Source: a virus
IMG/VR virus record: IMGVR_UViG_3300022745_000135
Coordinates: 1-25,314 of that record
DNA length: 25,314 nt
Reading direction: 5' to 3' (one strand)
Part shown: one piece after another, positions 4,900-21,315 of the stretch
Layout: every line of letters starts with the position of its first letter
Numbering within the stretch: the first letter of the stretch is position 1
Notes under the pieces: model-generated
Databases searched by the model: none
Seen by the model: the letters and a program-made list of their open reading frames with translations, nothing else
What the model was told of the DNA's origin: nothing
Position numbers and translations under genes: made by a program

Positions 4900-4906
4900 G
4901 ATTTAT

Positions 4907-4936
4907 TTAACCGCAGAGAACGCAGAGAGCACAAAG
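4907..4936 (+). repeat. Border repeat, forward, near-consensus copy
   Basis: TTAACCGCAGAGAACGCAGA then GAGCACAAAG, ending exactly at ATG 4937. Confidence 0.92.
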
Positions 4937-5176
4937 ATGAAACTTCAAAAAATCAATTTGGACACGGTTTGTTTTACGCATGGGCGGAAGGTTCATTGCG
5001 TGTTTGGTGACGCGCCGGACCGTGAAGATTCGCTGATGTATTGCAACCGGCGGCTTTCAACCAATTGGCGGCTGCGGAAAAAGAGTGACCGGCATTGCAA
5101 AGAATGCACCAAGCAACTGCGCCGCGCGGGAATGTCGTGGCAATGGTATGAGAAAGACAAGTTCAAGAAAGTTTAA
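4937..5176 (+). CDS. Small Cys/His-rich protein, possible zinc ribbon, 79 residues
   Basis: ATG 4937 touches the border repeat; an upstream in-frame ATG (4814) lies inside the previous gene and is rejected. Cys/His residues occur as CFTHGRKVHC near the N-terminus, a lone Cys in MYCNRR, and RHCKEC (C-x2-C) near residue 55. This is compatible with one or two zinc sites. The C-terminus is very basic and aromatic (MSWQWYEKDKFKKV). It could bind nucleic acid; no family is recognised. The stop lies in the next border repeat. Confidence 0.6.
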   Translation: MKLQKINLDTVCFTHGRKVHCVFGDAPDREDSLMYCNRRLSTNWRLRKKSDRHCKECTKQLRRAGMSWQWYEKDKFKKV

Positions 5177-5202
5177 CCACAGAGAACGCAGAGAGCACAA
5201 AG
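5173..5202 (+). repeat. Border repeat, forward copy
   Basis: TTAACCACAGAGAACGCAGA then GAGCACAAAG; gives TAA 5174-5176 and ends at ATG 5203. Confidence 0.9.
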
Positions 5203-5224
5203 ATGAGAACCTACAAAATTTATT

Positions 5225-5480: not shown

Positions 5481-6251
5481 ATGAAACACACAGACAATTC
5501 TCCCCAACTGGAAACGCCCGCCTCCGCGCCCATGGCGGTGCTCACGAATCGCGCGGCTTACTTGGCATCCAACCCCGAGGCGCGGCGCGTGCATGAGGAA
5601 CACATGGCGGAATTCCGCGAAAAGGTAGCAACTCTCGGATCGGGTAACATTTCTGCCGTAATTTCAGAAATTCGGCGGAACAATGATTTAACTGAAGAAA
5701 AAATCATTGGAATGATTACACAAAATCTTCCCGCCAAATCGGTGATGCTTTCCATGATTTATTCGGCGGAAAAATCCCGCCAAATCGGCATCACGCTTTT
5801 GAATTGGAGCGAAACGCTTCCCGGTCGCAGGTTGACGGTTGATTTATACGAACAACACAAGCACGAGCTGGTTGATCCTCATGGCCGGATTGCAACTTAT
5901 CAGCAAATCATGTGGTGGATTGATCAGGCAAAAAAACACCCAGAGCCAATTGTTAATCTTTATGAATCATTAAAATGTTATCAAGGGCTTTTGATTGCAA
6001 ATAGCCTCGGAGAGAAATGGGAAGATTCCAACCGTCGGATGCAGAAAGCCGTCCCGCCGCCGGACCCGCTGGTGGATCTCAAAAAAATTTTAGACCCAGC
6101 TTCGCTCAAAGATACATGGAAACGGTTACAGGCGAACTCGGATTATTTCCATGGCGGCCATCTGCGCGAGGATCTGCGCGATACGTTGATCGAGGATTTC
6201 CGGCCCGTGTTTGAACTGGTGGAACAGATCAAGCGGGAATTTGCGGTGTGA
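5481..6251 (+). CDS. Hypothetical helical protein, 256 residues
   Basis: ATG 5481 follows an ATCAAC-like stretch; a longer form from 5346 would translate the repeat and is rejected. The protein is helical with no Cys motif. Segments include VLTNRAAYLASNPEARRVHEEHMAEF (residues 20-45), ISAVISEIRRNNDLTEEKIIGMI (about 57-79), a WW-containing helix IATYQQIMWWIDQAKKHPEP (about 141-160) and PPDPLVDLKKILDPASLKDTW near the C-terminus. Codon use changes to AT-rich between about 5650 and 6000, which hints at a mosaic origin. It sits just upstream of the DNA methyltransferase. No family is recognised. Confidence 0.65.
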   Translation: MKHTDNSPQLETPASAPMAVLTNRAAYLASNPEARRVHEEHMAEFREKVATLGSGNISAVISEIRRNNDLTEEKIIGMITQNLPAKSVMLSMIYSAEKSRQIGITLLNWSETLPGRRLTVDLYEQHKHELVDPHGRIATYQQIMWWIDQAKKHPEPIVNLYESLKCYQGLLIANSLGEKWEDSNRRMQKAVPPPDPLVDLKKILDPASLKDTWKRLQANSDYFHGGHLREDLRDTLIEDFRPVFELVEQIKREFAV

Positions 6252-6256
6252 TGATT

Positions 6257-6286
6257 TTACCGCAGAGAACGCAAAGAGCGCAGAGG
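6257..6286 (+). repeat. Border repeat, forward copy
   Basis: TTTACCGCAGAGAACGCAAA then GAGCGCAGAG. If the frame is extended upstream it would read FTAENAKSAEG, a typical sign of wrongly translated repeat. Confidence 0.88.
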
Positions 6287-6294
6287 GAAACATC

Positions 6295-7104
6295 TTGAGT
6301 GAATATCAACCAACCCAATTCGGTTTGTATGCTGGAATCGGAGGCTTTGAACTTGCCTTCCATGCTGAAGGATTCCGCTGTGTCGGAATGTCCGAATACG
6401 AGCCGCACGCCGCCCACGTCAGCGGGCACTGGTTTGCCGGAACACCTAATTTTGGCGACGTGCGGGCCGGAGATTTCATCCAGCGAGTTCGCGCGACGTG
6501 CGGGCGTGTTGATGTCCTTACGGGAGGCGTGCCGTGCCAGCCTGCAAGCCTGCTTGGAAAGCGGCTGGGTGCAGCCGATGAACGCTGGTTGTGGGATCGA
6601 ACCATCGAAATCACTGACGGATTACGACCCGGCTACGCGGTCTTTGAGAACCCGCCAGCAATCCTTACGCTTGATGATGGACGAGCCGCCAACGGAATTA
6701 TTTCAAGACTGGCCGAAATCGGGTTTGATGCTTTCTGGCAAAATATACCCGCTGCCCTCACTGGTGCGGGACATCTGCGCGAACGACTTTTCATCATCGC
6801 TACCAACGCCGATTGCTCGGGATTACAAAGACACACCGGGATGCACGCCGAATCGCATCCGCAGGGAGCGCAGCGAGAAAGCGCAGGAGGACACCTTGCC
6901 ACGCCGGATTTACGAGGCCGAACAGAACGCACCCAAGGGGGGGGGTATTGGTGGCAAGAAACAAACACCGGAGTTCCGGTCTTGGCTGATGGGCTTTCCG
7001 GCAAACTGGTTGAAGCCGCTTGCCGACTTACCGGAAATGCAGTTGTCCCGCAAGTCGTCCAGCCGATTGCCCGCGCCATCTACAACCACATGACTCATGG
7101 GTGA
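6295..7104 (+). CDS. DNA cytosine-C5 methyltransferase (Dcm family), 269 residues
   Basis: It transfers a methyl group from S-adenosylmethionine to C5 of cytosine in DNA. Motif I is FGLYAGIGG (residues 9-17). Motif IV is GGVPCQPAS (78-85) with nucleophile C81. Motif VI is FENPPAIL (117-124), where the usual ENV is ENP. Motif VIII is HLRERLFIIA (160-169). Motif X is GNAVVPQ (247-253). TTG 6295 is chosen as start because upstream in-frame ATG 6211 would translate the previous gene's end and a border repeat. The target-recognition part between motifs VIII and X is short and contains nine consecutive Gs. The gene is overlapped almost completely by a second open frame. It is likely a phage self-methylation or anti-restriction enzyme. 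Confidence 0.88.
   Translation: MSEYQPTQFGLYAGIGGFELAFHAEGFRCVGMSEYEPHAAHVSGHWFAGTPNFGDVRAGDFIQRVRATCGRVDVLTGGVPCQPASLLGKRLGAADERWLWDRTIEITDGLRPGYAVFENPPAILTLDDGRAANGIISRLAEIGFDAFWQNIPAALTGAGHLRERLFIIATNADCSGLQRHTGMHAESHPQGAQRESAGGHLATPDLRGRTERTQGGGYWWQETNTGVPVLADGLSGKLVEAACRLTGNAVVPQVVQPIARAIYNHMTHG
6299..7093 (+). CDS. Candidate overlapping gene in the +1 frame of the methyltransferase, 264 residues
   Basis: A GTG start four bases after the methyltransferase start opens a frame that stays open to 7093. Its translation does not look random. WPKSGLMLSGKIYPLPSLV (residues 138-156), LPTPIARD (168-175) and TPEFRSWLMGFPANW (223-237), followed by LSRKSSSR, match in order a phage protein pattern I remember (WPRSGM...G.AY.LP, WPTPTA.D, NP.FVEWLMGFP.GW, SRKS). 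Back-translation shows why the first two motifs go with Dcm: the conserved LAEIGFDAFWQNIP and FIIATNAD regions give them when read one base on. So this may be a true dual-coded product, or a shadow whose database relatives are also shadows. Not resolved from sequence alone. Confidence 0.4.
   Translation: MNINQPNSVCMLESEALNLPSMLKDSAVSECPNTSRTPPTSAGTGLPEHLILATCGPEISSSEFARRAGVLMSLREACRASLQACLESGWVQPMNAGCGIEPSKSLTDYDPATRSLRTRQQSLRLMMDEPPTELFQDWPKSGLMLSGKIYPLPSLVRDICANDFSSSLPTPIARDYKDTPGCTPNRIRRERSEKAQEDTLPRRIYEAEQNAPKGGGIGGKKQTPEFRSWLMGFPANWLKPLADLPEMQLSRKSSSRLPAPSTTT
6937..6945 (+). repeat. Nine-G homopolymer tract inside the methyltransferase gene
   Basis: ACCCAA is followed by nine Gs and TATTGG. 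In the methyltransferase frame it reads TQ-GGG-YWW, in the overlapping frame PK-GGG-IGG. Loss of one G would join methyltransferase residues 1-217 to the other frame's WLMGFP tail and delete motif X. Confidence 0.9.
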
Positions 7105-7885: not shown

Positions 7886-8353
7886 ATGGCATCGTTTAAC
7901 AAAATCGTTTTGCTCGGCAACCTCACGCGCGATCCCGAATTGAGATACACCCCCAAGGGCACGGCGGTGGCCAAGTTGGGGCTGGCGGTGAATCGCGTTT
8001 GGACGAACGAGGCGGGCGATAAGAAAGAGGAGGTGACGTTTGTGGATGTGGATGTGTTCGGGCGCACGGCGGAGAACGCAGGCCAATACTTGCGCAAGGG
8101 GCGTCCGGTGCTGATTGAGGGTCGGCTCAAGCTGGATCAGTGGGAGGACAAGACCACCAGGCAGAAGAAATCACGCCTCGGCGTGGTGGCGGAGATGATT
8201 CAGTTTTTGGGGAGTAGTCAGGAGTCAGGAGTCAGGAGTCAGAATCCAGAAGGGAAGGTGCAGGATGAATCGGTGCAGGCGGATGCGCCGGTTGAAAGCC
8301 AGCAAGCGCCGCCGGATGGTCCGCCGGAAAATGATGATGTGCCTTTTAATTAG
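7886..8353 (+). CDS. ssb: Single-stranded DNA-binding protein
   Basis: Classic bacterial/phage SSB of 155 residues. The OB-fold (about residues 1-110) begins MASFNKIVLLGNLTRDPELR and continues with FVDVDVFGRTAENAGQYLRK and VLIEGRLKLDQW. The acidic C-terminal tip DDVPFN is the partner-binding peptide that recruits replication and repair proteins. It protects single-stranded DNA in phage replication together with the DnaC-like loader. The linker at residues about 109-122 (SSQESGVRSQNPEG) is encoded by an inserted GGAGTCA repeat; the OB-fold and the tip remain intact, so the protein should work. Confidence 0.95.
   Translation: MASFNKIVLLGNLTRDPELRYTPKGTAVAKLGLAVNRVWTNEAGDKKEEVTFVDVDVFGRTAENAGQYLRKGRPVLIEGRLKLDQWEDKTTRQKKSRLGVVAEMIQFLGSSQESGVRSQNPEGKVQDESVQADAPVESQQAPPDGPPENDDVPFN
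8210..8251 (+). repeat. GGAGTCA-type repeat within ssb
   Basis: Four tandem-like AGTCAGG units (GTAGTCAGGAGTCAGGAGTC and onward) ending CAGAATCCAGAAG, in frame with the SSB linker. Confidence 0.85.
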
Positions 8354-8381
8354 GCGGAAGCGACACCGCCAAAAAAACACC

Positions 8382-8837
8382 ATGAAACAATGTTTTAAAT
8401 GCAAAGACACAAAGCCGTTGAGTGAGTTTTATGCTCACTCAAGAATGGCAGATGGTCATGTGAACAAATGCAAAGAATGCAACAAGATTGACGTTGTAAA
8501 AAACAGGCTAAAGAAACTCGAATACTATCACAACTATGACCGAAACCGCGCCAAACTAACACCAAGAAAAATCAGCGCCAGCAAGCGCAACTTTTGGTCA
8601 AAAATAGTTTCTCCTGATAAATACAAAGCTAGGATAAAAATTGGAAACGCCGTCCGGCGCGGCAAAATCAAGAGACTTCCGTGCGAAAATTGCGGCAATG
8701 AAAACACTGAAGCTCACCACACTGATTACTCTAAACCTTTGGAAGTTCGTTGGCTCTGCCCGAAATGTCATCATGCCGAACATAGGAAATATGATTACAA
8801 TAATTTGCCGGAAATAAAATCCAAGTTAGGTGGCTAA
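8382..8837 (+). CDS. HNH-type zinc protein, 151 residues
   Basis: The N-terminal zinc site CFKC...NKCKEC uses C4, C7, C30 and C33 in the 'F-x-C-K-x-x-K-x-x-x-x-F' style common in phage HNH proteins. The C-terminal site has CENC (C101, C104), EAHHTDYSKPLEVRWLC (110-126) and PKCHHAEH (127-134). The HH and DYSKP motif with a following C-x2-C-H matches HNH-like nuclease relatives of phages. The gene is lysine-rich and clearly more AT-rich than ssb and the following gene, so it is probably a later arrival. Its stop overlaps the GTG start of the next gene by 8 bases. It may be a homing-type or packaging-associated nuclease. Confidence 0.72.
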   Translation: MKQCFKCKDTKPLSEFYAHSRMADGHVNKCKECNKIDVVKNRLKKLEYYHNYDRNRAKLTPRKISASKRNFWSKIVSPDKYKARIKIGNAVRRGKIKRLPCENCGNENTEAHHTDYSKPLEVRWLCPKCHHAEHRKYDYNNLPEIKSKLGG

Positions 8838-10488: not shown

Positions 10489-10626
10489 ATGAGCACAATA
10501 AAAGGTAGTTGGAGCCGGGTGCAAGACACGGAGAAATTCCGCAAAGAGTCAGACCGGATTTTTAAGAAAAATTCAGCCAAGCGATATTTAACCGCAAAGA
10601 GCGCAAAGAACACAAAGAAACCATGA
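10489..10626 (+). CDS. Small basic protein with a repeat-encoded C-terminus, 45 residues
   Basis: ATG 10489 opens MSTIKGSWSRVQDTEKFRKE..., a lysine- and arginine-rich peptide. Its last third (YLTAKSAKNTKKP) is the translation of a border repeat. The stop overlaps the ATG of the next gene (ATGA at 10623). Either a genuine small protein was extended by repeat insertion or the frame is accidental. Confidence 0.35.
   Translation: MSTIKGSWSRVQDTEKFRKESDRIFKKNSAKRYLTAKSAKNTKKP
10588..10620 (+). repeat. Border repeat, forward copy (left bracket of zinc-protein copy 1)
   Basis: TTAACCGCAAAGAGCGCAAA then GAACACAAAGAAA before ATG 10623. Confidence 0.88.
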
Positions 10627-11171
10627 GTGAACTTACCGAGCGTGATTTGAATTGGTTCCGGCTGGCAAACAGCGCGGCACCAGATGGATTCTACGATTTC
10701 AAACGGCGGTTTCTCGCCCGCTTTGCCGCGCGCGATGGCTGGGATTTGCAGACGATTGAAAAATACTGTTGGACGTGCGACGGTAGCGGGGAATGCGCAA
10801 AAGGTGTTGAATGTCATTCGTGCGATGGTTCTGGCATCCATCACACCGCCGAGCATTGGCTTCAGCGGTGGAATCTCTGCGGGCAAATCTATCATGTGCC
10901 CGAATTTTGCGCTCCGCCGCATTGGCAGCGCGGGGATTCTCCGAAAAACGAAATCCACGGCCGCATCGCGCACGGCAATGTTTCTTTGTCCGCCGCCCGT
11001 CGGGCGTATCTTCGCCTGCTTCTCCGACATGAACCAATGAATTTTTATTGGGCGGTGATCAATCGGATGAAATGGCGCGGGCAGGAATTCAAAGCCAAGT
11101 GGCATTGGCGATTATTGAAGCTGCGAAACAAGATGGATTTATTTCCTGTGGTGGACGAAATCCCTTTTTGA
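10623..11171 (+). CDS. DnaJ-type zinc-finger protein, copy 1, 182 residues
   Basis: Two C-x-x-C-x-G-x-G knuckles, CWTCDGSG (C49, C52) and CHSCDGSG (C64, C67), form one DnaJ-like zinc centre. No J domain is present. The flanks are aromatic and basic: DLNWFRLANSAAPDGFYDFK before the knuckles and FYWAVINRMKWRGQEFKAKW near the C-terminus. A copy at 14059-14607 differs by about 32 bases (about 94% identity, counted by eye) but only four residues (S17G, Y48E, C58Y, R128Q). In both places it is bracketed by a forward border repeat on the left and an inverted one on the right. A role in capsid assembly or packaging is possible from position only. Confidence 0.75.
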   Translation: MSELTERDLNWFRLANSAAPDGFYDFKRRFLARFAARDGWDLQTIEKYCWTCDGSGECAKGVECHSCDGSGIHHTAEHWLQRWNLCGQIYHVPEFCAPPHWQRGDSPKNEIHGRIAHGNVSLSAARRAYLRLLLRHEPMNFYWAVINRMKWRGQEFKAKWHWRLLKLRNKMDLFPVVDEIPF

Positions 11172-11176
11172 ATTTT

Positions 11177-11203
11177 GAGCTCTTTGCGTTCTCTGCGGTT
11201 AAA
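11177..11203 (-). repeat. Border repeat, inverted copy (right bracket of zinc-protein copy 1)
   Basis: AGCTCTTTGCGTTCTCTGCG then GTTAA, ending just before ATG 11206 of the large terminase. Confidence 0.88.
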
Positions 11204-11205
11204 TC

Positions 11206-13398
11206 ATGTCCACTACCCAAACCATTGAACCTGTGTTGCCGGATGAATCTCTGATCGCGGAGATTTTTGCGGCGCAGGGGAAATCGTTTCGTGGTGGGGC
11301 GGTGGAGAACCTCGGCGGCGCGCCGATGGGCAAGGGGCACGGGAACGATGGGCAGCCGTTCGACATCGAGACGGCGTGTTATCTGAAACCAATCTTTGCG
11401 GAGTATGACAAGGCGCGGGCGAATGGCACGCGGCTGAAGCTGGTGCTCAAGGCCGGCGTCAAGACGATGAAAAGTTTTGCGCTGGAAGTCTGCGCGGCGG
11501 AGCACGTTTGCAATGGGTCGGGCGATGTGGCGTTGTATTTCGGCACGGAAAGCGCCGCCGAGAGCACGGCGACCACGCGCATCCTGAATTTTTACAAGGG
11601 CGATGATCAATTCGGCGGCGGCATCCCGCGTTTCCGCGAGAAGATGCAAACGATGCGGAGTCGGTTTGATGAGACAAATGGCGCGCTGAAGTTTCCTGAT
11701 AAGACGTTGTTTATACTGTCCGCCAACCTCGGCAACACGCAGCAGAAAAATCTGGCGTTCGTGGGGTTAGAAGATGGGTTTGTCACCGAGAAAAACGGGA
11801 TGATTAACGAAATGATTGCCCGCACCACGCAGTATCAGAAAGAGGCCATCATCTTTCTGGAAAGCCAGGGCGGGGAGAAGGAATTCGATTTTGATGACCA
11901 GTTTAAGGACACCGACCAACGGGAATTGCACGTCAATTGCCCGTGCTGCGGCAAGCAACACATTTTCAACTGGAAAGCCTACGATAAAGAGTGGATGACG
12001 CGGCCGGAGGATTTCGTTGCCACCGTGCCGGTGTCCGAAGTGGATAGGATAAAGTTGATGGTTGATAGCCAATACCCGTTGGCATCCGAAGCGGAAAAAC
12101 AATCAACGATCAGTCAGGAACTATCAACGCTTCAAAAAGAACTTTCCGAAAAACTCAAAGGCAAGATTGCGGGGTTTCGGCGCGGGGCGGATGAGTTGAT
12201 TAAGCTGCCGAATGGCGCTTACAACGAGGCGGCGGTGTTGCGCGAGACGCATTTTGAGTGTTTCCATTGCGGCGGCATCTGGCGCGATGACGGGGAGTTC
12301 GGGCCGACGCGCATTGCCTTGGATCAATCCGCCGGCAATCCGGAGAATCATGTGCCGCTGCGGCCGGATGCGTTGCAGGGGAACGTGGGATTCAACATCC
12401 CGCAATGGATTAATCGGCGTATTCCTTGGGGTGAGTTGATGCTGGAAAAGCTAAAGGCGGACCGCACGGCCAACGAGTTGGGGAATTTTGCTCCACTAAA
12501 GCAATGGTGGCAAAAGAAAGCGGCGCGGACGTGGGATGAAAACATTTCCGCCAAAGCCCCGGAAAAAATCGGCGCCACGCTCTACGAGATTGATCCGGCC
12601 AAGAAAGTGCCGGGCGAAAAGGTCCGCATCTCGGGCACGGACATCCAGTTCAACCTCACGCACATGATTTATCAGGCGTGGTCCATCTGCGAACGTCCGC
12701 GCTTGTTGGATTACAAGTGGATCAAGCCGGCCACGGCGGGTTTGAGCGACCAGGATGCGCGGGAGTTCTGTAAAGCGCGCGTGCGGGAGCTGGATAAACT
12801 TTACGGCATCGAACCACAGAACAGCATGAAAGATTGCGGGCATCGTCCTGATCTCATGCGGGAATGGGCGGCGGAAGATGCCATTCTCGTGCCCGTGCCG
12901 GATTACATGGGGCGCAAGATGATGAAGTGGATTTCCTACGGCTTGCTCATCGGCGACGACAAGGCGGGTTACAAATGGGCGAATCCCGGTCGCGCCGCCA
13001 CCATCGCGCGTTACAAACAATACGAATGGACGCAGGTGGATGCCGTGAAGGATGGCCGCCGCGTGAAAGTGCCGGTGCATCATCGGTTGTGGAGTAACCC
13101 GAGCATCAAAGAAATCGCCGTGCGCTGGCGGGATGGCGATTCCGCGCCGAAGATCGAGGTGCACGAGAAATTTCTGCAATTGCCGCCCGGTGCTACCGAG
13201 GCGATGAAGAAAGAAAGTTTCATGGCGCAGATGACGAGCGAGCGGTTGTTGCCGTGGCGGGGGCGTCCGGGCAAGTTCCGGTGGGATAACGAAGGTCGCC
13301 CGAACCATGCGTGGGATGGGTTTTGCATGGTCATCGTGCGGATGGATGAGCTGGGGATGTTGAACCACTTTGACGCGCCGGCGGATGACTCGGAGTGA
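11206..13398 (+). CDS. Phage terminase large subunit (GpA type), 730 residues
   Basis: The motor and nuclease that packages DNA into the prohead. The ATPase part has a variant Walker A, LKAGVKTMKS (residues 81-90), then YFGTESAAES and FVGLEDGF. Two zinc knuckles typical of GpA terminases follow: CPCC (245-248) in NCPCCGKQHIFNWKAYD, and CFHC (352-355) in FECFHCGGIW. The C-terminal part holds the nuclease region (GHRPDLMREWAAED, then VPVPDYMGRKM...) and ends with GRPNHAWDGFCMVIVRM, as in the family. Length fits GpA (about 640-700) with an insertion. That insertion (about residues 280-310, between the zinc knuckles) contains ATCAAC and GTCAG repeat sequence in both orientations. Confidence 0.9.
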   Translation: MSTTQTIEPVLPDESLIAEIFAAQGKSFRGGAVENLGGAPMGKGHGNDGQPFDIETACYLKPIFAEYDKARANGTRLKLVLKAGVKTMKSFALEVCAAEHVCNGSGDVALYFGTESAAESTATTRILNFYKGDDQFGGGIPRFREKMQTMRSRFDETNGALKFPDKTLFILSANLGNTQQKNLAFVGLEDGFVTEKNGMINEMIARTTQYQKEAIIFLESQGGEKEFDFDDQFKDTDQRELHVNCPCCGKQHIFNWKAYDKEWMTRPEDFVATVPVSEVDRIKLMVDSQYPLASEAEKQSTISQELSTLQKELSEKLKGKIAGFRRGADELIKLPNGAYNEAAVLRETHFECFHCGGIWRDDGEFGPTRIALDQSAGNPENHVPLRPDALQGNVGFNIPQWINRRIPWGELMLEKLKADRTANELGNFAPLKQWWQKKAARTWDENISAKAPEKIGATLYEIDPAKKVPGEKVRISGTDIQFNLTHMIYQAWSICERPRLLDYKWIKPATAGLSDQDAREFCKARVRELDKLYGIEPQNSMKDCGHRPDLMREWAAEDAILVPVPDYMGRKMMKWISYGLLIGDDKAGYKWANPGRAATIARYKQYEWTQVDAVKDGRRVKVPVHHRLWSNPSIKEIAVRWRDGDSAPKIEVHEKFLQLPPGATEAMKKESFMAQMTSERLLPWRGRPGKFRWDNEGRPNHAWDGFCMVIVRMDELGMLNHFDAPADDSE
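12053..12129 (+). repeat. ATCAAC-type repeats inside the large terminase gene
   Basis: AGTTGATGGTTGATAG (inverted unit, 12053-12068) and, about 30 bases on, AATCAACGATCAGTCAGGAA then CTATCAACG (forward unit). Read as KLMVDSQY and STISQELST in the protein. Confidence 0.7.
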
Positions 13399-14058: not shown

Positions 14059-14607
14059 ATGAGCGAACTTACCGAGCGTGATTTGAATTGGTTCCGGCTG
14101 GCAAACGGCGCGGCGCCGGATGGTTTTTACGATTTCAAACGTCGGTTTCTCGCCCGCTTTGCCGCGCGCGATGGCTGGGATTTGCAGACGATTGAAAAAG
14201 AATGTTGGACCTGCGACGGTAGCGGGGAATACGCCAAGGGTGTTGAATGTCATTCGTGCGATGGTTCTGGCATCCATCACACCGCCGAGCATTGGCTTCA
14301 ACGATGGAATCTTTGCGGGCAAATCTATCATGTGCCCGAATTTTGCGCTCCGCCGCATTGGCAGCGCGGGGATTCTCCGAAAAACGAAATCCACGGTCGC
14401 ATCGCGCACGGCAATGTTTCTTTGTCCGCCGCCCAGCGGGCGTATCTTCGCCTGCTTCTCCGACATGAACCAATGAATTTTTATTGGGCGGTGATCAACC
14501 GGATGAAATGGCGCGGACAGGAATTCAAAGCCAAGTGGCATTGGCGGTTGCTGAAGCTGCGCAACAAGATGGATTTGTTTCCCGTTGTGGATGAAATTCC
14601 GTTCTGA
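14059..14607 (+). CDS. DnaJ-type zinc-finger protein, copy 2, 182 residues
   Basis: Same length as the 10623-11171 gene and nearly the same protein. CWTCDGSG and CHSCDGSG are both kept; only residues 17, 48, 58 and 128 differ. ATG 14059 is chosen because it matches copy 1 and follows the border repeat; a longer form from 13957 would read through the previous gene. Most of the roughly 32 base differences are silent third positions, which means both proteins have been under selection since they split. Flanking DNA outside the gene differs between copies, including a different variant of the border repeat, so the duplicated unit is essentially the gene itself. Confidence 0.75.
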   Translation: MSELTERDLNWFRLANGAAPDGFYDFKRRFLARFAARDGWDLQTIEKECWTCDGSGEYAKGVECHSCDGSGIHHTAEHWLQRWNLCGQIYHVPEFCAPPHWQRGDSPKNEIHGRIAHGNVSLSAAQRAYLRLLLRHEPMNFYWAVINRMKWRGQEFKAKWHWRLLKLRNKMDLFPVVDEIPF

Positions 14608-15973: not shown

Positions 15974-17851
15974 ATGAAAATCTCTTTTGAACTGGCGCGC
16001 TCGGTTCCCGCCTCGGCCAAAAACATCACGGGCGCCTCGCTGAAATCGCCGTTCCCGCCGGAAGCCTTGCGCGTGCCGGCGCAGGCGGTGCGGGATTATC
16101 AGGAATTCCGGCATCTGGCGGAAAAGATGAATCGCTCGTTTGAAGCCGCGAGCACGGATAATTACAACTTGGATTTGCGCGGCACCTACGGCTCGGCGAA
16201 TACGGAGATCATGCCGTATCGCTACACGGTGCGGAATCGCGGCCGGACGATGACGAAAGACACCGCGCACGGGCGCGGGCTGAATCGCACTTACGCCGAT
16301 AGCGTGGTGGGCGATGATCCGTTTGAGTTGGAGATGGAGCTGGGCGATCTGGACGGCGACAACGATTTGACGGCGGAAAACAAGGTGGCCGATGCCATCG
16401 AAACCGCGTGGAAACGGTATTGCCGCAAAGGGAATTTCACCGTGCGCAAAAACATGAGCGCACTGGAAGCGTATCGCGTGATTGAAATGGCGCGGATGCA
16501 CCCCGGCAGCATCATCGTGCGCCTCTACGAAGGATTTCCGCACAACGAATTCAAGTTTGCGGTGGACTTGCTGGAAGAAGATCGGTTGCAGGAAACGTAT
16601 CAGGGACGTTCCCCGCAAGACGGTATGTTTGGCGAGGGTAATCCCATCCGCGGCAGCATCGAGTATCATCCCGAATACAATTTTCCGCTGGCGTATTGGC
16701 TGTTGCGCAAGCATCCGGGCGAATTTTTCTCACAAGGCGCGGTGTTGAGCGATGGTAAAAATTTCCGCGTGCAGATTCCGGCGTCGGAGATCATCTATTT
16801 CAACAACATGCGGACGCGGCCCGAGCAAGACAGCGGGTTCACCGAGTTGGATGCCACGATGTTGCCGCTCTGGCGCATCCATCAATATGACAAAAGCCTG
16901 ACGCTATCCAGCATCGCCAGCGCGAGCAAACCGTGGTGGATCGAGCAGAAAGAACCGACGGGCTTTACGATGCCATCCGATCCGGCGACGGTGTTCGCAC
17001 CGAACGGCGATGCGGTGCCCGGTATTTCGCCGGTGGGCGCGCTGCCATCCGATCCCGCGCAGACGCAAACGGGGCCTAACACGCCCACGAACACCATCAA
17101 ACCCGCCGCGCGCGAGATGTTGCCGCCGGGTTTCACACTGAAACAGGCCGACCCGCGTTTCCCCATCGAAGCCGCGCACGAATTCCGGTTGGACAATCTC
17201 CGCGATGTGGCGGTCGCCACGCACGGTAGCTATCAGCAGGCCACGAACGATTACCAGAATCTCGGCTTCATGGCGGCGTTGATGAGTCAACAGGCGTTCC
17301 AGCGCCACATGCGTTGCCGTCAAAAGACGTTCGCCGAGGATTTGCTGGAATGGTTTCGCGCCTGGCTGCGGGCCACCATCAATTCGGGATATTTCGACCG
17401 CCGCGGCGTGGATGTGTCCATCGAGAAACTGGACGAGTATGTGGATGCGGCGCGGTTCAAAGGCCAGCAATTTGAATTCGTGAATCCGCTCGTGCAGGCG
17501 CAATCGCTCATCCTGTTGCATCAAGCGAAACATCTCAGCCGTCAGGATGTGCAAGACGCGCTCCCGAACGGGAAGAAGATGAAAAAACTGCTCAAGCAAC
17601 TGAAGCGCGAGCAGGACGATGCGGAAACCGCCGGCGTGACGTTGGATCCCGAGCCGGAAGCGGAAGGTGCGTTGGATGCCGAGGCCAAGGCGAACGAAAA
17701 CAAGCCCAAGCCGGACCACAAAGATTCCCAACCGCCCGCAAAGGGAAAAACCGGCACGCTGAAAACGCGCAACTTGCTGCGGATGAAGCGCGGCGAGATT
17801 GATCAAACCACAATGGCGTTGATCCAGCAAAGCACCAACGGGGTTCACTGA
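15974..17851 (+). CDS. Phage portal protein, lambda family, 625 residues
   Basis: The portal forms the dodecameric ring at the unique capsid vertex through which DNA enters and to which the head-tail connector binds. Features fitting the lambda portal family are an early RTYADSVVGDDPFELEMELGD region (about residues 103-123), ENKVADAIETAWKRYCRKGN (135-154), the HPGSIIVRLYEGFP strand, then EIIYFNNMRTRPEQDSGFTE, corresponding to the family's IxHxxxxxRPGQxRG loop. A Gln/Pro-rich spacer (about 350-375) and a long acidic/lysine C-terminal tail follow. The length exceeds the usual 500-550 mainly because of that spacer and tail. The strong call rests on motif order and on position between terminase and protease. 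Confidence 0.85.
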   Translation: MKISFELARSVPASAKNITGASLKSPFPPEALRVPAQAVRDYQEFRHLAEKMNRSFEAASTDNYNLDLRGTYGSANTEIMPYRYTVRNRGRTMTKDTAHGRGLNRTYADSVVGDDPFELEMELGDLDGDNDLTAENKVADAIETAWKRYCRKGNFTVRKNMSALEAYRVIEMARMHPGSIIVRLYEGFPHNEFKFAVDLLEEDRLQETYQGRSPQDGMFGEGNPIRGSIEYHPEYNFPLAYWLLRKHPGEFFSQGAVLSDGKNFRVQIPASEIIYFNNMRTRPEQDSGFTELDATMLPLWRIHQYDKSLTLSSIASASKPWWIEQKEPTGFTMPSDPATVFAPNGDAVPGISPVGALPSDPAQTQTGPNTPTNTIKPAAREMLPPGFTLKQADPRFPIEAAHEFRLDNLRDVAVATHGSYQQATNDYQNLGFMAALMSQQAFQRHMRCRQKTFAEDLLEWFRAWLRATINSGYFDRRGVDVSIEKLDEYVDAARFKGQQFEFVNPLVQAQSLILLHQAKHLSRQDVQDALPNGKKMKKLLKQLKREQDDAETAGVTLDPEPEAEGALDAEAKANENKPKPDHKDSQPPAKGKTGTLKTRNLLRMKRGEIDQTTMALIQQSTNGVH

Positions 17852-17854
17852 TAT

Positions 17855-17884
17855 TTAACCGCAGAGAACGCAGAGAACACAAAG
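17855..17884 (+). repeat. Border repeat, forward, near-consensus copy
   Basis: TTAACCGCAGAGAACGCAGA then GAACACAAAG, ending at ATG 17885. Confidence 0.92.
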
Positions 17885-17953
17885 ATGAAAAACCGCGATA
17901 AAAAATGGAATTTGCAGACGATTGCCAGCGGCAGCTTGCCGCTCTGCGGTTAA
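17885..17953 (+). other. Short frame inside an inverted repeat bracket, 22 residues
   Basis: MKNRDKKWNLQTIASGSLPL followed by CG and a TAA that belongs to the inverted repeat half at 17941-17954. Probably not a functional gene. It shows the bracket layout: forward repeat, short frame, inverted repeat. Confidence 0.25.
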
Positions 17954-18666: not shown

Positions 18667-21315
18667 ATGGCAACCGAACCTACCGCTCCTGTGGTGATGT
18701 CCCGCGAGGACGAAACCCCGAACTTCCGCTATTTCCGCGCCGGCAAATCCGATTTCACCGATGACAACACGTTTCAAGTGTGCATGTCCTCGGAATTTCC
18801 GGCGGAGCAACGCGCCACCAAGGAACACGAAAAGCTCGGCATCGCCAAGGCGGGCGAGAAATACGTTGAAATCTTGAGCCACGATGAGGGCGATGTGGAT
18901 TTGAGCCGGTTCGTCGGCGAAAACCGCGCGCCGTTGCTGGATGAGCACAAGGATAACCGCCATCTCGGCTACATCAAAGACGCCCGTTTGAGCACGGACA
19001 AGCATGTGCGCGGCGTGATCGTTTTCGATCAGGTGAGCAAACTCTCCAAAACCCGTTGTGCGGAAGTGCGCGCAGATAGTCGCCGGAATTTCTCCATCGG
19101 TTACGCGCACACCCGCTATCTCGGCAGCGTGAAACTGGATGACGGTCGCACGGGTCATCGGTTTGCGTGGGCAGGATTGGAGCTTTCCAATGTGGCGGTG
19201 CCCGCCGACCCCGGCGCGCAAAAAGGCCGCAGCGCCAAGAATCAGGAATGCTCGTGCATCGCCTGCGGTGATCGCTATGCGCGGAAAGATTTGAACGACG
19301 ATTACGTTTGCGCGGATTGCGCGGAAGCGGAAAGCCCCGCGGAAGATGCCACCGATGCCGGCGAACGCAAAACGGGCGGCGAACAGCGACAGTTTCGCGC
19401 GAAATCTGCTGACAAAGAATTTTGCATTTCTCACTCCGAACTCCGCCGCAAGGTGGATGAGGCGTTGAACGGCGATACTCGCTTCAAATCCAAGCGCGCC
19501 AATGGCGATGTATTTTCGGATTACTACCTGCACGACGTTCATCAGATTTCCGATGACGCCACTTCCTTTCAAGCCGTCGTCAGCAGTCCCGCCTGGCGCG
19601 ATGGCAGCAAACTCTACGCGGTGGATTTTTCCTACGACGGCGCAGCCGTGACGCTTGGCGAGCGCACGCATGTGGAAGCCAAGACCACTTTAGAAGCCGT
19701 TGAGCGTTCCATTCCGTTTGATGCAAAACAATTCCGCTCCGTTCCCGAGGCGGAAAGTCAAGTTGACTCCGAAACCTTGCAGAGAAGTGCTCCGGCACAA
19801 CAACCAAATTTAACCCAAACCATTATGCCTAAAACCGCCGCTGAACTCGCCGCTGAAAACCCGGATGCTGTTGCCCAGATCCGCAGCGAAGCCGAAAAGT
19901 CCACTCGTTCCATCGTGTTGAACGAGATCAATACCAAAGCCCAAAAGGTTGAGGAAGCCAACAAGGAAGTCCGTGCTCGTGCCAACGACATGGTGAAAAC
20001 TCACGGCATGAAGTGGGTCGGCAAGCCGGGCGATGTTCAGGTGGTCGCCGATGTCATTCGCAAGATTGAATCGGAAATCTGCGCGATGGATGATTCTCAC
20101 GACGCCGTGGAACGCCGGACGGAATTCTCCCGCCGCGCGATGGCTGCGATTGAAGGTGCGCGCGCGCCGCTCAACCAAGTGGATGCGGCCACGTTGCCGT
20201 TTGAAGTTGCGGGCCGTTGCAGTCTCCGCCGCCTTTACAATGCCGCCGCTGAAGAAGCGGGTCGCGGCAATCGCACCTCCGCTTTCAAACCGAAAGATGG
20301 CGCGGAAGCCGAAGCTGATGCCGAACTCCGCAAAAATGCGCGCAACTTCCCCGGTGGCGATGCCATCGAAATGGCGGGTGTGCAGTTGCCGGTCAATATG
20401 CCGGCGCGGCAGTTGAATCTCTCGGATCGCCAGTTGCGCCGCATGACTCGTGATGCCCTCGCGGGTGATTTCGGTTCCGCTGGTGCGCTCATCGCGCCAG
20501 ATTTCCGCTTCCCGACCATCGAATTGCTCCGCAACAAGATGGCGCTGGGTCGCGCGGGCATCACCATCCTCGGTGGTGCGGTCGGCAACATCGTTCTCCC
20601 CCGCCAAACGGGTGCCACCACGTCGCAATCCGTTGCGGAAGGTGCCATCCTCGCGGCTTACGACCAGACCTTTGACCAGGTGAAACTCACGCCGCATCGC
20701 ATCGGCTCCAAGCAAAATTACAGCCGCTTGACCTTGCTGCAATCCGGCGATGATTTTGAAGCGTTGGTCATCAACGATCACATGGCGCAAAACGCGCTCC
20801 GCGCCGATTATTTGGTGCTCAACGGTTCCGGCGGCAACGACGAGCCGGTGGGTATCTTGAATCAGCCTGGTATCGGTGCCGTGGTGTTCGCTGGCTCGGC
20901 CGCGAATGCTTACAAGAATATCATCGCGCTGGAAACAGCGATCAAGAAGGCGAACATTGACGAACCGCCGACTTACATCACCACCTCCACCGCCCGCGGC
21001 ACGCTCCGCATCACGCCGGCCACCCTCACGGGCAGCACGGTGGTGAGCGGTCAGACGCAAGCGCTCTGGGTCGGTGAACAATTGGTGGGTCGCGATGTTG
21101 TGGACAGCCAACAGGTTCCCGGCGACATCCTCCTCGCCCTCGTCGGAAGGCACGTAGTCATGGCCCAGTGGGGCGGTTGGCAGTGCGTATTAGATTCGCT
21201 AACATTAGCGGACTCGGATAAAATTAAGCTCTCTATGAATACTTATATTGATAGTGCGCTTCGTCATCCGCAGGCGGTCGCCCGCAGCGTGGACAGCCTG
21301 GCGGTGCTCGCCTAA
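18667..21315 (+). CDS. Fused prohead protease and HK97-type major capsid protein, 882 residues
   Basis: Residues 1-185 are an HK97-type prohead protease: LLDEHKDNRHLGYI with H94, NFSIGYAHT with S143, and the closing strand LELSNVAVPADPGA. A zinc knuckle follows (C197-x2-C200, C215-x2-C218). A domain with DYYLHDVHQI and KLYAVDFSYDGAAVTLGE (about 285-335) is similar to one often attached to such proteases. A helical delta/scaffold-like region runs from M387, and the HK97 capsid fold covers about 597-882 (ALAGDFGSAGALIAPDF ... DEPVGILNQPGI ... LVGRHVVMAQWGGW). An in-frame ATG at 19825 (MPKTAAELAAENPD) could give a separate 496-residue capsid chain. Protease, scaffold and capsid in one chain imply self-cleavage during maturation. 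Confidence 0.88.
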   Translation: MATEPTAPVVMSREDETPNFRYFRAGKSDFTDDNTFQVCMSSEFPAEQRATKEHEKLGIAKAGEKYVEILSHDEGDVDLSRFVGENRAPLLDEHKDNRHLGYIKDARLSTDKHVRGVIVFDQVSKLSKTRCAEVRADSRRNFSIGYAHTRYLGSVKLDDGRTGHRFAWAGLELSNVAVPADPGAQKGRSAKNQECSCIACGDRYARKDLNDDYVCADCAEAESPAEDATDAGERKTGGEQRQFRAKSADKEFCISHSELRRKVDEALNGDTRFKSKRANGDVFSDYYLHDVHQISDDATSFQAVVSSPAWRDGSKLYAVDFSYDGAAVTLGERTHVEAKTTLEAVERSIPFDAKQFRSVPEAESQVDSETLQRSAPAQQPNLTQTIMPKTAAELAAENPDAVAQIRSEAEKSTRSIVLNEINTKAQKVEEANKEVRARANDMVKTHGMKWVGKPGDVQVVADVIRKIESEICAMDDSHDAVERRTEFSRRAMAAIEGARAPLNQVDAATLPFEVAGRCSLRRLYNAAAEEAGRGNRTSAFKPKDGAEAEADAELRKNARNFPGGDAIEMAGVQLPVNMPARQLNLSDRQLRRMTRDALAGDFGSAGALIAPDFRFPTIELLRNKMALGRAGITILGGAVGNIVLPRQTGATTSQSVAEGAILAAYDQTFDQVKLTPHRIGSKQNYSRLTLLQSGDDFEALVINDHMAQNALRADYLVLNGSGGNDEPVGILNQPGIGAVVFAGSAANAYKNIIALETAIKKANIDEPPTYITTSTARGTLRITPATLTGSTVVSGQTQALWVGEQLVGRDVVDSQQVPGDILLALVGRHVVMAQWGGWQCVLDSLTLADSDKIKLSMNTYIDSALRHPQAVARSVDSLAVLA

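Follow-up and report, generated by a model that had tools for sequence, protein, structure and literature searches.

In canonical C5-cytosine methyltransferases the target recognition domain is followed by motif IX, a sequence of the form LTPRECARLMGFP. M.EaeI is a heterodimeric m5C methyltransferase like M.EcoHK31I, and Lee, Kam and Shaw are said to have traced the small subunit of M.EcoHK31I in 1995 to an alternative frame inside the large-subunit gene. Two further kinds of enzyme bear comparison: the monomeric M.HhaI and M.HaeIII, which have their own small domain and motif IX within the chain, and M.AquI, in which two chains, alpha and beta, make up one C5-methyltransferase with motif X on the small subunit. 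For M.EcoHK31I, the excerpted text of PMC3404938 places motifs I-VIII and X on the large subunit, together with the predicted recognition domain, and has motif IX only on the smaller polypeptide.

Here we analyze a methyltransferase gene carried by a stretch of viral DNA (the window, 25,314 nucleotides in all), in which a second frame, shifted by +1, is open over nearly the whole gene. An earlier note on this DNA had offered two outcomes: a conserved overprinted partner protein, or a frame shadow that has entered the databases as a family. We consider it probable (about 0.8) that the +1 ORF is a nested gene for the small (beta) subunit of a two-subunit C5-cytosine methyltransferase of the M.EcoHK31I kind. 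Compared by motif layout with the excerpted account of M.EcoHK31I, the window agrees in that the large chain (alpha, frame 0) has motifs I-VIII and X but lacks motif IX, and in that the predicted +1 product, the smaller polypeptide of the nested frame, would supply motif IX. It differs in that the recognition domain seemingly lies in the small subunit, whereas that account puts it in the large subunit of M.EcoHK31I, and the present family occurs both in phages and in genomes from many bacterial phyla. Unlike M.AquI, the window has motif X in alpha and a nested beta; an M.AquI-like division with motif X on the small subunit was seen, among the loci read, in L350, Streptomyces phage Samy and Gordonia phage Camerico. 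Alpha has the large-domain fold of M.HhaI and M.HaeIII, but the small domain and motif IX that those enzymes hold in their own chain are lacking.

The two-subunit kind of enzyme is thus known, and what is new is its breadth in phages, the evidence of selection, the signs that the recognition domain goes with beta, and beta proteins unmatched in Pfam and NCBIfam. Judging by titles and the openings of abstracts, we found no paper devoted to a +1 subunit nested in phage methyltransferase genes; the sections of PMC6070908 that we consulted do not discuss a nested gene, and the only literature match on the family number was phrog_10089, a different family. The question of overlapping gene or shadow receives a direct answer, and the gene a name. 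The result suggests that, for many phage and prophage records in which a single 'DNA cytosine methyltransferase' is listed, cloning that gene by itself may yield an inactive enzyme. If our reading is true, M.EcoHK31I passes from a laboratory curiosity to a widespread kind, and the family becomes an alignable and rich case for the evolution of two proteins on one stretch of DNA.

Two reading frames at the locus

The two frames and the conserved elements of the +1 product are as follows.

6295-7104, + strand: C5-cytosine methyltransferase, large (alpha) subunit; TTG start, motifs I-VIII and X, 269 aa
6299-7093, + strand: +1 ORF, stop-free for 264 codons; GTG at 6299, stop codon at 7091-7093
6512-7093, + strand: likely nested gene for the small (beta) subunit; ATG at 6512, 193 aa, placed by the family-wide stop depletion that starts there
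6620-6667, + strand: conserved beta element DYDPATRSLRTRQQSL (family form YDpaTSSWRTSQ.SL)
6710-6739, + strand: conserved beta element WPKSGLMLSG
6800-6841, + strand: beta PTPxARD element LPTPIARDYKDTPG, presumed target recognition region
6965-7009, + strand: beta motif-IX-like element TPEFRSWLMGFPANW (family form LNPxWVEWLMGFPxGW)
6937-6945, + strand: nine-G run within the overlap, 5' of motif IX, a candidate slippage site
6255-6307, + strand: dispersed-repeat copy bearing the methyltransferase start

Reading of the ORFs bore out the 264-codon open +1 frame (6299-7093) described in the earlier note, and the three +1 motifs named there are the last three beta elements above. They are one-base-shifted readings of the methyltransferase segment LAEIGFDAFW and of the FIIATNAD region, as had been claimed. 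The methyltransferase ORF itself is stop-free also 5' of TTG 6295, back to a TTG at 6211. For the +1 protein, a functional start near 6506-6514 is more probable than one at 6299. Loss of one base from the nine-G run would join alpha to the +1 motif IX with loss of motif X, and the run is a possible phase-variation site.

The phage protein family to which the earlier note pointed is real: the +1 protein matches phrog_1008 (E 1.4e-15, 58.5 bits). Twelve +1 proteins (set A5) match PHROG families 1008 (12/12), 26627 (12/12), 27243 (11/12) and 31772 (10/12), which are labelled 'DNA methyltransferase' or are nameless, none being described as a nested subunit. Against Pfam the window +1 protein gave no confident family (best E 0.16, below the cut-off), and the 12 beta proteins tested had no match in Pfam or NCBIfam; nor did beta proteins match PDB sequences.

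Occurrence of the +1 frame and selection upon it

A scan of IMG/VR with a profile of eight +1 proteins gave 80 loci (L009-L088), the best 80 of 177 confirmed. As these were picked by the +1 motif and hence carry a selection bias that could affect the test, a second set was picked by methyltransferase motifs only, two DNA patterns bringing in 120 and 103 new loci respectively.

Each of the 88 loci first assembled (the window, L006, and others that include the 80 top-ranked of 177 confirmed) has the +1 family in the +1 frame of a C5-methyltransferase. In bacterial genomes a scan confirmed 374 relatives of the +1 protein, of which the best 80 come from many phyla; all 80 are in the +1 frame of a methyltransferase match, 75 of them cleanly and the other five with methyltransferase matches spread over more than one frame. 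Hence the question raised earlier, whether +1 hits always overlap a methyltransferase, is answered in the affirmative for the 88 loci and for these 80 (the best 80 each time), and standalone +1 copies lacking a methyltransferase were absent from both the 88 loci and the best 80 of 374, although rarer cases may lie outside these samples. With better profiles, a +1 match was found in 215 of the 222 methyltransferase-selected loci having a methyltransferase match (the first, weaker profiles gave 200 of 205). The seven exceptions have weak or short methyltransferase matches (26-148 bits, ORFs of 93-271 aa), and L183 has no methyltransferase match. Nineteen matches fell off the +1 frame of the matched methyltransferase piece; the eight such loci that were read comprised partial methyltransferase matches, frame switches and in-frame cases. 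That each examined +1 match overlaps a methyltransferase also suits a frame shadow, in which the +1 motifs would follow from conserved methyltransferase residues and codon habits and the +1 frame would go untranslated, but we read the co-occurrence as reflecting part of the enzyme.

Selection was measured against synonymous shuffles that keep the protein and the codon usage; a second kind of shuffle also keeps the +1 codon composition. From 310 loci (the window copy L006 excluded), 278 had a methyltransferase match of at least 150 bits. Removal of 18 with stops in the matched span, and then of short or near-identical genes, left 177, of which 119 were methyltransferase-selected. An earlier shuffle test had used 81 of 87 genes, six with stops in the span being excluded.

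The 119 non-redundant methyltransferase-selected genes contained 492 +1 stops over their whole length versus 860 in shuffles (SD 18). Over core columns 60-209 there were 26 versus about 415 expected, a depletion of about 16-fold. No depletion was found in columns 0-59 (259 observed, 238 expected) or from column 240 onward, nor in the +2 frame of the whole gene (1512 observed, 1414 expected). The borders of the depleted region are sharp: it starts at columns 58-64, just 5' of catalytic motif IV, and ends just past EWLMGFPxGWT. In the window gene, none of 2000 synonymous shuffles had a 264-codon open +1 stretch (the median longest stretch was 102), and the gene has 2 +1 stops versus a shuffle mean of 6.1 (P 0.0035). 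The first of the two outcomes offered by the earlier note, a conserved overprinted partner, is thus supported by stop depletion in genes chosen by their methyltransferase motifs.

The +1 protein sequence is also better preserved than the methyltransferase residues dictate. Scored with a profile trained without the window locus, the window +1 frame gave 120.5 bits; the highest scores were 77.7 among 1000 codon shuffles and 103.8 among 1000 shuffles that also kept the +1 codon composition. For the 119 genes the profile was built from 50 training rows, taken neither from the window nor from any gene under test, and the median score was 152 bits. The two shuffle kinds retained medians of 63 and 82 bits, and methyltransferase residues alone therefore yield part of the resemblance, as a shadow would have it. 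Nevertheless, in each of the 119 genes the real score was higher than that of any of its 100 codon shuffles, and in 118 of them it was also higher than that of any of 100 context-keeping shuffles; only L231 fell short in the second comparison. Protein identity in most matched pairs of these genes is just 30-50%, which makes retention of ancestral codons an improbable explanation.

The earlier note had held that +1 stops in most close homologues, together with no excess synonymous conservation, would speak against a coding +1 frame. The outcome did not refute such a frame: stops are depleted about 16-fold over the overlap. Among pairs at 45-55% protein identity, the overlap has clearly more codon identity at identical residues (0.514) than the part upstream (0.404; 975 of 1198 pairs). 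Less favourable to our reading, the excess was slight at 55-65% (0.571 versus 0.542; 134 of 249 pairs), and at 65-75% it was uneven (0.745 versus 0.696, with 9 of 24 pairs).

In the reverse test the +1 protein was held fixed, using the 87 of the 119 genes in which the +1 frame is open throughout. The recognition region of frame 0 had no stops, versus 132 (core columns) or 254 (all codons), and was barely conserved beyond what the +1 frame imposes (mean z -2.3). Frame-0 conservation was strong in motifs IV-VIII (z -11 to -15) and moderate in the IX-like part (z -6.6). Salmonella phage S9-5 and E. coli PT62 provide a comparison on a short time scale. Their 28 differences in the overlap include 20 that are silent in frame 0 and 7 that leave the +1 protein unchanged. 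With 28 differences in 438 nt, the overlap shows no lower density than the 186 nt upstream, which have 6. Over this short span the beta frame changes faster than alpha and strong +1 constraint is absent, which counts against our reading.

Beta is probably started inside the alpha gene, judging by codon positions and spacing. The window has GTG 6506, TTG 6509 and ATG 6512 in succession as alternative beta starts, of which ATG 6512 is the presumed one. A TTG stands at column 62 in 59 of the 119 genes versus 33 expected, and in 99 of 116 genes a start codon is found among the 12 codons that precede column 68, versus 73 +- 4 in shuffles, an excess that follows in part from the lack of stops. No single beta start codon is conserved across the family. 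Shine-Dalgarno pairing is modest in the family (mean -4.3 versus -3.4 kcal/mol in shuffles), and no strong Shine-Dalgarno sequence was seen at the window ATG 6512. Between the upstream +1 stop and column 68, 5 of 50 P1-selected genes and 1 of 112 methyltransferase-selected genes have no start codon.

Division of the motifs between alpha and beta

Alpha belongs to the C5-cytosine DNA methyltransferases: it matches Pfam PF00145 (E 6.9e-34, 118.2 bits; cut-off 22) and phrog_363 (E 1.2e-51), and motifs I, IV, VI, VIII and X were located.

6319-6360, + strand: alpha motif I region, FGLYAGIGGFELAF
6523-6564, + strand: alpha motif IV region with the catalytic cysteine, GGVPCQPASLLGKR
6640-6666, + strand: alpha motif VI region, VFENPPAIL
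6775-6813, + strand: alpha motif VIII region, LRERLFIIATNAD
6832-6999, + strand: alpha residues 180-235, the expected place of the recognition domain and motif IX; no secondary structure from residue 181 on in the AlphaFold2 model
7027-7080, + strand: alpha motif X, LTGNAVVPQVVQPIARAI, located in the sequence and in the AlphaFold2 model

The AlphaFold2 model of alpha (pLDDT 83.7, pTM 0.79) aligns with M.HhaI over 217 residues (Z 26.3, rmsd 2.9), the best rows having Z of about 26 with 203-217 residues aligned. Its large domain is modelled with confidence (residues 1-172 mostly above 90 pLDDT, the motif X helices about 93-95), and pLDDT falls below 50 at residues 180-188 and 190-224, that is, over 180-224 but for one residue. 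The model has no folded small domain at the place of the recognition domain. Alpha therefore lacks the combination of motif IX and small domain in one chain that marks a monomeric C5-methyltransferase. The earlier note had credited this frame with all key C5-methyltransferase motifs; that is not so for motif IX, which in the family is absent from frame 0 and sits in the +1 frame.

One loose pattern detected motif IX in frame 0 in 3 of 118 methyltransferase-selected genes; among 119 genes it matched 81 in the +1 frame and none in +2. An in-frame motif IX was thus absent by pattern in 115 of 118 relatives. We also took 30 PF00145 loci from 25 bacterial genomes that were picked because they hold a beta locus. 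Nine of the 30 have beta in the +1 frame and no in-frame motif IX, and of the other 21, an in-frame motif IX was found in 15 and none by pattern in 6. Given an in-frame motif IX in 3 of 118 family genes, a +1 motif IX in 81 of 119 and an in-frame one in 15 of the 21 other loci, we conclude that the motif has moved to the other frame. A frame shadow as a general effect of C5-methyltransferase genes was considered with the same 21 loci and rejected: one has a weak beta match (23 bits) without stop depletion, and the 17 that were testable had 274 +1 stops versus 264 expected, with no depletion as a group.

The beta protein alone gave a poor predicted structure (pLDDT 62.8, pTM 0.23), a point against our reading, although an obligate subunit need not fold by itself. 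Its N-terminal half is conserved in the family and had no counterpart in Pfam, NCBIfam or PDB sequences. Comparison of the alpha profile with the beta profile found no similarity.

In the mechanism that we propose, alpha would provide AdoMet binding and the catalytic cysteine, its motifs I-VIII and X forming the large domain. Beta, translated from an internal start, would contribute motif IX along with, most likely, the small domain for target recognition, by which the DNA sequence is read. Both chains would assemble in trans as one enzyme, and the phage DNA would be methylated, presumably against host restriction.

Fused and split relatives and the alternative readings

Several natural variants carry the beta module in other arrangements. 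In L231 PTPTARD elements and LSPIFVEWMMGWPNGW lie in the methyltransferase frame itself, with motif X after them, and this PTPTARD-IX region, the small-domain region of a single chain, matches the C-terminal half of beta by profile comparison (probability 97.9, E 3.2e-13). Motif IX also lies within the methyltransferase frame in L093, L140 and L277. Gene 71 of Mycobacterium phage Martik is a single chain in the fused order, of which the smaller beta profile matched only 18 motif IX columns (probability 41, E 0.00028). In the split relatives L350, Streptomyces phage Samy and Gordonia phage Camerico, alpha stops after motif VIII and the +1 ORF contains PTP elements, motif IX and motif X; in L350, stops break the methyltransferase frame where the +1 frame remains open. 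As the module is fused in some phages and separate in others, it probably works with the enzyme in trans. The depositors of Paenibacillus phage Jacopo had already called a nested +1 CDS, gp57, inside gp56; no beta CDS is annotated at the two E. coli RefSeq loci that were looked at.

A further set of loci departs from the usual layout. In L113, L308, L356, L380 and L005 (Mycobacterium phage Llama genes 74/75) the methyltransferase changes frame at differing places, and in L113, L308 and L356 the methyltransferase and +1 segments adjoin within one frame. These switches are either natural frame swapping or assembly errors. The prophage methyltransferase of L400 (E. coli PCP07014, locus 1501-2262) is marked as a pseudogene and has an in-frame stop in frame 0; its +1 frame has a stop at nearly the same place, as in a decaying copy.

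The adjoining segments of L113, L308 and L356 bear on the alternative that survives best, ribosomal frameshifting from alpha, which would join alpha motifs I-IV/VIII and the PTP/motif IX part in a single chain, made in place of a separate beta or alongside it. It would also accord with the fused single-chain order of L231 and Martik and with the few genes lacking a start codon before column 68. However, beta conservation begins 5' of motif IV and includes a half that is absent in frame from the single-chain methyltransferases seen here, and TTG at column 62 and starts near column 68 are in excess. Moreover, inspection found no conserved slippery site, and because motif X usually lies in frame 0 again, the ribosome would have to shift twice; some of the frame switches, as noted, may be assembly errors. 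We regard frameshifting as unlikely, but it keeps some weight because the beta start is not fixed across the family and the Shine-Dalgarno signal is modest.

Less probable still is an independent role for the +1 protein, for example in anti-restriction or methyltransferase regulation, its overprinting on the methyltransferase being a matter of chance. A conserved N-terminal half and the lack of matches in Pfam, NCBIfam and PDB sequences would suit such a factor, but the C-terminal half of beta matches the small-domain region of the single-chain L231, motif IX is absent from alpha, and the split relatives place motifs IX and X on the +1 chain. The frame shadow has the least to commend it and in our view is refuted for this family, given real scores above every codon shuffle, stop depletion that starts and ends sharply within the methyltransferase gene, 20 of 21 other C5-methyltransferases without a +1 match and an L350 methyltransferase frame broken by stops where the +1 frame is open.

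Returning to the nested beta subunit, we lean, with less assurance than for the subunit itself, towards a particular history. Across a large class of phage C5-methyltransferases, the catalytic and sequence-reading halves of the enzyme would be overwritten on one another in two frames. The recognition domain of alpha would have decayed until it is an unfolded stretch that merely reads through the beta frame, and the overlapping gene would extend across most of alpha. Specificity would then evolve under a double-coding constraint, and one-base insertions or deletions would shift the module between the separate and fused states.

Elsewhere in the window, the following PHROG matches indicate that the contig comes from a tailed phage.

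8265-8837: endonuclease
11206-13398: large terminase
15974-17851: portal
18667-21315: major head protein

A dispersed repeat (about TTTAACCGCAGAGAACGCAGAGAGCACAAAGATG) occurs at 17 places, for example 4906-4958, 5172-5224, 6255-6307 and 17854-17906, and related sequence is found on the other strand at 6 places, for example 11173-11226. Copies often lie just 5' of a likely start codon, and the copy at 6255-6307 holds the methyltransferase start. A 300-nt duplication, 95% identical (10623-10922 and 14059-14358), flanks the terminase gene.
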